64,000 nucleotides of DNA, from NCBI GenBank assembly GCA_902797885.1, contig CADBUP010000020.1, positions 1 through 64,000 on the forward strand, given 5' to 3'. Of the stretch, positions 62,445-64,000 are shown in pieces. Both the position numbers and the translations under genes were made by a program. The notes beneath the pieces are model-generated. The model had not been told where the DNA came from. It was given only the letters and a program-made list of their open reading frames with translations, and made no database searches. Numbering within the stretch: the stretch's first letter is position 1; the number at the start of each line of letters is the position of its first letter. The stretch comes from an uncultured Ruminococcus sp. (lineage in GTDB: Bacteria > Bacillota > Clostridia > Monoglobales > Monoglobaceae).

Positions 62445-62762
62445 CTCTTTTCGCTGAAATCGGGTCTTGATAAACATCTAAAAGGATAGCTATATGACAG
62501 CAGGGTGCTGAGAGTAAGCTACTCACAGCGCCTGTCTTAAATTATATAAGACGCTGCATATCATATATTATATATTTTATGTAATATATTTAAGATAAGG
62601 TTAAACGCAAGCTAACATTCTTTCGTTAAACCCCAGACAGAATCAACTGTCCGCGCAAGCCCCTAAGGGTATCGCGGCCGCAAAATCTCTTTTTATTTAC
62701 CCCCTGCCGAAAAGAGATTTAATAAACCCTTTGCCGGCGCAGGGCGGCGGAATGGAGATTTT
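62445..62762 (+). promoter_or_regulatory. Structured leader of glnN, candidate regulatory RNA
   Basis: 318 bp without a gene. Hairpins in order: GACAG...CTGTC with inner GCTG-x-GAGTA/TACTC-x-CAGC (62496-62536); GGTTAAACG/CGTTAAACC with one mismatch (62599-62632); GACAG-AATCAA-CTGTC (62636-62651); CCGCG/CGCGG enclosing CCC-CTAA-GGG (62651-62677); AAATCTCTTTT/AAAAGAGATTT (62683-62720). The loop of the last holds CCCTGCCG (62702-62709), which can pair with CGGC-g-CAGGG (62735-62744) just before the GGAG ribosome binding site, giving a pseudoknot. A weak promoter TTGATA-18-TATATG precedes it at 62468-62496. It is not a glnA/Downstream-peptide glutamine riboswitch as I know them. Confidence 0.55.
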
Positions 62763-64000
62763 ATGCCTAATTTAAAAGAAGTATTCGCAAGTTCGGTGTT
62801 TGACAACGCCACAATGCAAGAAAGACTCCCCAAGGATATTTATAAGCAGGTCAGAAAGACCAAGGAGGAGGGCGTACCGCTCACCCGCGAGGTTGCCGAT
62901 GTTGTTGCTAACGCAATGAAAGACTGGGCAATCGAAAAAGGCGTCACTCACTTCACACACTGGTTTCAGCCGATGACCGGAATCACCGCCGAAAAGCATG
63001 ACTGTTTTATGTCGGTCACAAATGACGGTCAGATTATAATGGAGCTTTCGGGAAAGGAACTTATCAAGGGTGAGACGGATGCGTCAAGCTTCCCGTCGGG
63101 CGGATTGCGCTCCACGTTTGAAGCAAGGGGTTATACAGCATGGGACCCTACCTCCGACGCATTTATAAAAGACGGAATTCTCTGTATCCCGACGGTATTT
63201 TGTTCATACACCGGCGAGGCTCTTGATAAAAAAACACCGCTTCTCCGTTCGATGGAGGCGCTTAATACCCAGTCGCTCAGAATACTCAGGCTGTTTGGCA
63301 TGAATGATGTAAAGCGCGTCAGCATTACCGTCGGTCCCGAACAGGAATACTTCCTGATAGACAGAAAAATCGCGCTCAAACGCCGCGATATTACATATAC
63401 GGGAAGAACTCTCTTCGGCGCAATGCCGCCGAAAGGTCAGGAGCTTGATGACCATTACTTCGGTGTAATCAAGACGCGCGTATCTGAATATATGCGTGAC
63501 CTTGACGTTGAACTCTGGAAGCTCGGCGTGCGCGCAAAGACAAAGCACAACGAGGTCGCCCCCGCTCAGCACGAGCTTGCCCCGTTATACGCATCGGGCA
63601 ACATCGCCGCTGACCATAATCAGCTTATGATGGAGCTGATGAAAAAAGTTGCTGAAAAGCACGGAATGAAGTGTCTGCTTCACGAAAAGCCTTTTGCCGG
63701 CGTAAACGGAAGCGGCAAGCATGACAACTGGTCTCTCGGCACGGACACAGGCATAAATCTTTTAAAACCGGGAAAGAATCCGCGCGACAACACATTATTC
63801 CTGATATTCTTCTGCGCCGTTGTCAAGGCGGTTGACGAGTACCAGGATATGCTTCGCATCTCTGTCGCAAGCGCAGGTAACGACCACCGTCTCGGCGGAA
63901 GCGAAGCCCCGCCCGCAATCATCTCTATGTTCGTGGGCGACGATCTGGCAGAGGTTTTAAAATCTGTCGCCGACGGAAGCGATTATATTGCCAAAGCAAG
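62763..64000 (+). CDS. glnN: Glutamine synthetase type III (3' truncated by the window)
   Basis: 412 codons are present and the frame is open at the right edge; the family is about 700 residues. GS III makes glutamine from glutamate and ammonia and is common in Clostridia and Bacteroidetes. Recognisable segments: [19 protein letters not shown] near 62-80, [21 protein letters not shown] in pieces, [13 protein letters not shown] near 195, [12 protein letters not shown] near 260, [16 protein letters not shown] near 318 and [17 protein letters not shown] near 375. GGAG lies 8 nt before the ATG. The long structured leader suggests nitrogen-dependent control. Confidence 0.96.

Follow-up and report, generated by a model that had tools for sequence, protein, structure and literature searches.

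Upstream of glnN, the gene for a type III glutamine synthetase (positions 62,763-63,998, forward strand; PF12437, 8e-81, and PF00120), the 64,000-nucleotide stretch of DNA analyzed here (the window) contains a 318-bp gap rich in complementary segments. The gene itself extends past the window, with a 730-codon open frame in the genome. An earlier note described the gap as a single leader with an H-type pseudoknot beside the ribosome-binding site, possibly an undescribed nitrogen-responsive RNA. The question raised by this locus is whether the pseudoknot belongs to glnN or is one example of a more widespread structure. The sequence comparisons described below favor the latter, with a probability of about two in three for the following reading: the structure is a mobile ribosome-binding site that includes a bistable translational switch, i.e., a small non-autonomous element that enters some 3 nt ahead of start codons. 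The mobility and the RNA structure of this element are well supported.

The gap is not one leader, while the complementary stem that was noted in it is real. A promoter-proximal hairpin (62,496-62,536, forward strand, as are all features below) is separate from the element, which spans about 62,597-62,762. AAGG (62,597-62,600, within AAGATAAGG), at the element's left edge, is the probable remnant of the original glnN Shine-Dalgarno sequence (SD), judging, for this diverged copy, from the position of the host SD in copies with an intact left hairpin (H1). RNAfold yields a diverged H1-like hairpin (62,599-62,632; canonical H1 is TAACGTGAAAGTTCCTTTCACGTTA), followed by H2-like middle hairpins (62,636-62,676, i.e., 62,636-62,651 and 62,652-62,676), which are found at the same place as the canonical H2, GCCCGTGCG...CGCACATGGGC, with a sequence that is not conserved. 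The core is kept. Here, hairpin P1 (62,683-62,720) is formed by 11 perfect pairs, AAATCTCTTTT/AAAAGAGATTT, between 62,683-62,693 and 62,710-62,720, and its loop contains the 5' strand of helix P2 (CCCTGC, 62,702-62,707). The P2 3' strand (GCAGGG, 62,739-62,744) lies 9 nt upstream of the SD GGAG (62,754-62,757), so that both the stem and the loop-downstream pairing claimed previously are present in the sequence. A further helix, P3 (62,733-62,748; GCCG 62,733-62,736 with CGGC 62,745-62,748), would surround the P2 3' strand. The element-borne SD and spacer, GGAGATTTT (62,754-62,762), abut the glnN ATG and include the 3' strand of a competing helix, P4 (62,755-62,762); the P4 5' strand, the anti-SD AAAATCTC (62,682-62,689), overlaps with the P1 5' strand and is paired with 62,755-62,762 in the minimum-free-energy (MFE) fold of this copy.

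The 356-nt leader is more stable than dinucleotide shuffles (z = -3.6, 0/100), but folding energy by itself is little proof of a structure. The stronger evidence is covariation among copies of the element, which shows that P1 and P2 exist. In an alignment of 103 copies (A3; 99 distinct), in which P2 was left unpaired in the fitted structure, the P2 strands are paired in 97.4% of the cases even though this helix is not part of the fitted model. The cells in which both sides have changed number 62, compared to 9.6 ± 2.7 in shuffles and at most 14 in slid registers; these counts do not represent independent events because the copies are related, and the statistics ignore phylogeny. The covariation score of P2 is 0.387 (0.176 in shuffles, at most 0.117 in slid registers), and RNAalifold, unprompted, chooses exactly this helix. 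The P2 types include CCCTGC/GCAGGG, CCATAC/GTATGG, CTCTGC/GCAGAG, CCTTGC/GCAAGG, CTGTGC/GCACAG, TCCTGC/GCAGGA and CTTCGC/GCGGAG, several of which coexist within single genomes. For P1, compensatory changes are seen at 8 of 9 aligned pairs. The covarying pairs in both pseudoknot stems that had been proposed as a check were thus found across the 99 distinct copies, and the pseudoknot next to the ribosome-binding site, placed to act on translation, is borne out. P3 was rejected as a proven helix: it is paired in 97.2%, but weakly supported because it is mostly invariant or changed to G-U, with one compensatory change. In a copy from Subdoligranulum, which precedes a gene judged by eye to be aspartyl-tRNA synthetase-like, P1 is wholly different (GCCCCGCCA/TGGCGGGGC) and P2 is GCTTCGC/GCGAAGC, and diverged old copies, i.e., those before glnN, an Rrf2-family gene and a GH2 gene, still keep P1 and P2.

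A BLAST search of the own genome with the leader as query yielded matches at about 20 places, mostly to the last 80 nt only. The aligned copies share a hairpin with a loop complementary to a segment that precedes GGCGGAATGGAG, after which the start codon follows; a generic ribosome-binding site of the species was rejected as the explanation, since GGCGGAATGGAG has one exact match in the window. A covariance model built from 11 copies (R1) identified 17 copies in the own genome. Four congeneric species contain 20, 26, 39 and 34, and others 30, 18 and 14 (copy-rich genomes, with 14-39 copies: G018, G019, G032 and G034-G037); most of genus g4 has none. In alignment A2, and hence in R1, the seed row L019 carries one G too many; the pair counts given above are unaffected because A3 was drawn from the genome sequences themselves. 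The element is found order-wide, in two families. When one genome from each GTDB species was scanned with a pattern, 114 stretches were obtained; among the 80 listed, all belong to Clostridia or unnamed Bacillota and most are in gut metagenome-assembled genomes (MAGs), and the carriers include the cultured Ructibacterium gallinarum, Candidatus Roslinia caecavium and Marasmitruncus. These genomes are mostly incomplete MAGs with contigs that break at repeats. A phage origin was considered and not retained: viral contigs gave no match in a first scan, while a looser pattern matched three. One IMG/VR viral contig (L417, 9600-9690) harbors a full core with a further P2 pair, GCCAAT/ATTGGC, before an open reading frame. 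The same 3' module, TTTCATTACTATTTGTGCCG...GGCGGAATGGAGATTATTATG or a close variant, precedes open reading frames in a Roseburia plasmid (L413) and phage contigs (L414, L416, L418); in these Lachnospiraceae and phage records it follows a different 5' module ending in GTTGGAACAC or close to it, and the Roseburia copy adjoins an IS110 transposase gene.

Besides glnN, about 16 other, unrelated genes are preceded by the element in the own genome, among them trkH, frr, metF, metN, ftsY and the genes for a tetM-like GTPase, an Rrf2 regulator, a GH2 enzyme and a nucleosidase. Housekeeping targets include eno, groEL, purA, murC, dapF, atpC, rpe, rimM and the genes for HPr and an era-like GTPase. Two own-genome copies are found before a phage portal gene (L013; PF16510) and a NikA-like mobilization gene (L007; PF21983), which are possible transfer vehicles. 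All copies examined are oriented in the sense direction before start codons. Among 131 unique copies, 124 are located directly before a start codon, where the open reading frame begins 3-16 nt past the element SD (exactly 6 nt in 104 of the 124), and in the remaining seven the next tandem copy begins between the SD and the ATG of the one before it, i.e., in the translation start of that earlier copy. In the own genome (e.g., L358, L366, L367, L368, L383), a variable short stem-loop abutting (G/A)GAATGGAGATT and ATG, with neither P1 nor P2, is also seen; these are perhaps remnants of the element or an independent translation-start hairpin.

Filled and empty alleles of eight genes were identified in three near-identical sister genomes. 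For HPr, the empty allele reads AAAGGAGCAAAACATT-ATG and the filled one AAAGGAGCAAAA-TAACGTG...GGCGGAATGGAGATTATTT-ATG (also ...GGAGATTATTT-ATG); for gene 6 the alleles are GAGGAGTTGGTATT-ATG and GAGGAGTTGGT-AACGTG...GGAGATTATT-ATG, and for RidA GGGAGATTAAT-ATG and GGGAGAAATAACACG...GGAGATTAAT-ATG. By these comparisons the insertion point is some 3 nt ahead of the ATG, such that the host SD remains on the left and the element brings a new SD on the right; the three bases on the right are in some cases those of the empty allele and in others the element's own. The ends defined in this way are (T)AACGTGAAAG on the left and GGAGATTATT on the right. In the sister genomes, several insertion sites have another repeated stretch, AATTAATTGTTTTTGGCAGGTTCGGATTTGTACTTTCACCC, nearby (L039, L078, L261, L349). 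Among 60 orthologous loci searched for glnN and frr, the element is present in the own genome only, and three other weak matches are found away from the start codon. The sets of copies differ between sister species. At the level of genome comparison, copy number, empty sites and nested insertions show that the element is mobile.

The size of the element is about 90-180 nt. Canonical copies (about 175-180 bp) are composed of, from the host SD, TAACGTGAAAGTTCCTTTCACGTTA (H1), TGCCTCCGGCGGATTTAATT, GCCCGTGCG...CGCACATGGGC (H2) and GTAA, followed by TAATCTCTTATCATTCCTTGCCCTGCGGATAAGAGA (P1 with the P2 5' strand), a linker, TGTGCCGACGCAGGGCGGCGGAATGGAGATTATT and the ATG; in shorter copies, e.g., that of frr, the core is found alone, and in the glnN copy the core is kept with diverged H1- and H2-like hairpins. 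Some copies (L392, L393, L334) are deletion derivatives joined at internal GGCGGA/GGGC repeats, all of which still end before an ATG, L392 and L393 in GGCGGAATGGAGATTATT and L334 in GGGCGGAATGGAG. A host SD is found just to the left of 52 of the 55 copies with an intact H1, as compared to 12% of random windows, and it lies as far from the H1 GTG as an SD normally does from its start codon. Leader-peptide control starting from this GTG (peptide VKVPFTLCLRRI) was rejected: many copies no longer have the start codon, while changes in the H1 stem are compensated (GTG/CAC to GCG/CGC), so that it is the stem rather than a peptide that is conserved. The 3' arm of H1, which ends in TGCCTCC, is complementary to the SD on the left, and the arm fits its own flank better than swapped flanks (13.02 vs 12.29, sd 0.17; 0/500). 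For an IS200/IS605 or REP/RAYT element, insertion at a set distance from a short motif read by an internal guide would be expected; the SD and the complementary arm could be such a pair, but the distance from the element to this SD varies, while that to the ATG is nearly fixed. The complementarity of the arm either guides insertion or was selected to occlude the old SD.

The structure reading in the earlier note captured the pseudoknot but missed a competing fold. P4 (TAATAATCTC paired with GAGATTATTA) and P1 share one 5' strand, and P4 is extended by P5 (CATTCC with GGAATG). In unconstrained nested folds, 15 of the 16 copies folded contain P4 and lack P1 pairs altogether; P4 is complete (7-8 pairs) in 14 of them, and in 14 of the 16 the MFE structure is a long P4-P5-P2 hairpin that hides the SD and the start codon. 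The ftsY copy has a partial P4 and the Rrf2 copy retains P1. RNAfold scores only nested folds and no pseudoknots, so the MFE gives no balance between the two folds. Covariation shows also in this case that the helix exists: at columns 1 and 113, T-A is found 51 times, A-T 30 times and T-T never, and there are 26 double-change cells, compared to 7 ± 2.3 when shuffled (110 copies). The variants include AACAATCTC/GAGATTGTT (L113), ATGATCTC/GAGATCAT (L103), TTTTAATCTC/GAGATTAAAA (L142) and TATTAATCTC/GAGATTAATA (L080), and in L354 the same change is seen in all three strands (ATGCTC, P1 partner GAGCAT, SD GGAGCAT). P5 displays little covariation and is largely missing from the glnN copy. The ribosome-binding site is thus spanned by two mutually exclusive folds, an arrangement that characterizes ON and OFF states of translational riboswitches, with covariation in P1/P2 as well as in P4.

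The main argument for a switch is that P1 and P4 exclude each other yet both are kept by compensation. We infer that the core is a bistable translational switch. In the OFF fold, P4, P5 and P2 would form one long hairpin covering the SD and the start codon. The apical strand GATAAGAG would, in the ON fold, recapture CTCTTATC to form P1, while P2, which from geometry appears compatible with both folds, would persist, yielding the H-type pseudoknot with the SD exposed. The left hairpin H1 is predicted to occlude the old SD of the host, so that translation would rely on the new one, and glnN translation would in this manner have been made switch-dependent by its copy of the element. The switch may not be general because the Subdoligranulum relative, which keeps P1 and P2, has no obvious P4.

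The complementarity of P4 could serve mobility, as guide or end pairing, instead of translation. In a wider form of this idea, the structures serve transposition only: H1, H2 and P4-P5-P2 would be single-strand hairpins with target-pairing guide arms, the SD at the end would merely keep the host gene alive and any effect on translation would be incidental. The hairpins extend to either end of the element, the H1 arm fits its own host SD better than swapped ones (see above), the P4 arm likewise fits its own right end better than swapped ends (19.5 vs 18.2, sd 0.18), the arm of L080 matches the spacer of the empty allele and insertions are tolerated before essential genes. However, P1 is incompatible with P4/P5 and yet compensated, and a single DNA hairpin has no need for it; moreover, no Y1 transposase was found in G000, G018 or G037. 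We consider this alternative rather unlikely, albeit the strongest competitor of the mobile switch.

No mobilizer was found among the three enzyme families searched. A Y1 transposase (PF01797), which would mobilize an IS200/IS605 or REP/RAYT element, was not seen in the three genomes just named and is present in 15 of 38 genomes, which are incomplete, with no relation to copy number; copies may be inactive. A reverse transcriptase (PF00078), searched for as a mark of group II introns or retroelements, is absent from G018, G034, G035 and G037 despite 20-34 copies, and the IS110 transposase (PF01548) does not track copy number. The eight filled/empty comparisons revealed no consistent target-site duplication of the kind expected for MITEs derived from DDE transposases. 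Nor are there terminal inverted repeats of the whole element, as the ends read from the empty sites are not mutually inverted; the inverted repeat formed by the P4 arms is confined to the core. A longer autonomous version was rejected: the few left-end matches without a right end that were read are contig ends, deletion derivatives or fragments.

An alternative to a mobile switch is a ligand-sensing riboswitch with a large, diverse regulon, spread via ordinary duplication and transfer. The preQ1 classes are translational riboswitches with a pseudoknot by the SD and an alternative anti-SD fold. The layout of the present element is the same, and the retention of P1 and P2 in the old copies after divergence is also in line with such a role. 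However, the target genes share no common pathway, and the housekeeping targets argue against a single metabolic ligand; in addition, the insertion into existing ribosome-binding sites with known empty sites and the differing copy sets of sister species make this alternative improbable. The earlier note's nitrogen-responsive leader RNA specific to glnN is, in spite of its position and the genuine pseudoknot, hardly credible, since the element is missing from all tested glnN leaders of relatives and precedes unrelated genes.

As a conserved control element of glnN, the promoter-proximal hairpin at 62,496-62,536 is a better candidate than the mobile element. Upstream of glnN, relatives have in common TTGACA-TATAAT and, after it, a strong hairpin (GGCGCTGTGAG...CTCGCAGCGCC) and then a T-run. 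This conserved structure, terminator-like in relatives, where it is a GC-rich stem and then a T-run, is seen in the window (62,467-62,536) and at 11 other loci (L264, L267, L270-L272, L280-L282, L285, L287, L291); the own-genome copy lacks the T-run. ANTAR targets are composed of two short hairpins, the hexaloops of which have A1 and G4, beside an intrinsic terminator (PMC3369931). Some of the glnN hairpins display CAGC-AAAGGC-GCTG, the hexaloop of which has the A1 and G4 of ANTAR targets, while a second hairpin of the ANTAR type at this upstream position was not established. ANTAR binding within the element itself was rejected: the hexaloop at 62,641-62,646 is AATCAA, lacking G4 as noted earlier, and the element contains no terminator.

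We consider the element an undescribed small mobile element without an Rfam family. As the earlier note had surmised, the structure matches no known RNA family: a scan with all 4227 Rfam families, including the glnA and Downstream-peptide glutamine RNAs, gave no match at the gathering threshold in the window or at five loci with canonical copies, the best weak matches being to unrelated families far below threshold. No description of start-codon-targeting repeats was found in the freely accessible literature that was searched. A more far-reaching proposal is that the element is categorically new, i.e., that it would find translation starts by pairing of H1 and P4 with the host SD, spacer and start codon, insert there, silence the host SD and impose its own bistable switch; we regard this as possible but on balance doubtful. 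If it is true, dozens of unrelated genes in a genome could come under a common translational control.

Small repeats are usually presumed to settle in harmless intergenic DNA. This element is found only between the SD and the start codon, the most sensitive point of a gene, including the genes for enolase, GroEL, FtsY, MurC and ribosome-recycling factor. Two questions become directly testable, namely how a mobile element can target translation starts and whether the translation of many genes is rewired simultaneously by such insertions, and the empty and filled alleles of sister species offer natural before-and-after experiments. The locus also illustrates a pitfall in RNA discovery: a convincing riboswitch candidate ahead of a single metabolic gene can turn out to be one copy of a mobile element.

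Among known systems, ANTAR-target leaders (PMC3369931) resemble this locus in that nitrogen genes of the glnN type are typical ANTAR targets and the separate hairpin at 62,496-62,536 sits at an attenuator-like place; in contrast, the element lacks the dual hexaloop A1/G4 hairpins and is located at the SD rather than at a terminator. With pseudoknot riboswitches of the preQ1 type (PMC11625349) it shares the H-type pseudoknot beside the SD and the alternative anti-SD pairing, but it is mobile and has no known aptamer, Rfam match or metabolic theme. REP/REPIN sequences with RAYT or TnpA-REP (PMC3733652, PMC3116915, PMC8266576) are likewise hairpin-based dispersed repeats, and the use of foldable ends in IS200/IS605-like elements is a possible analogy; REPs, however, reside mainly downstream of genes and have GTAG/CGTC tags, whereas this element precedes start codons and no Y1 transposase was found in several of the genomes rich in it. 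Prokaryotic MITEs (PMC10969869) are also short, non-coding, multicopy and presumably mobilized in trans. The present element differs in having no terminal inverted repeats at its ends and no observed target-site duplication, and in its fixed functional target, the translation start, which that review of MITEs does not mention. BOX elements of Streptococcus pneumoniae (PMC3049150), the sequence relation to which was compared through Rfam only, are similarly small, structured, modular multicopy repeats that are co-transcribed with their neighbors and can affect expression. They are found between genes, many of them convergent, while the element described here is found at start codons in every copy examined, where it replaces the SD.
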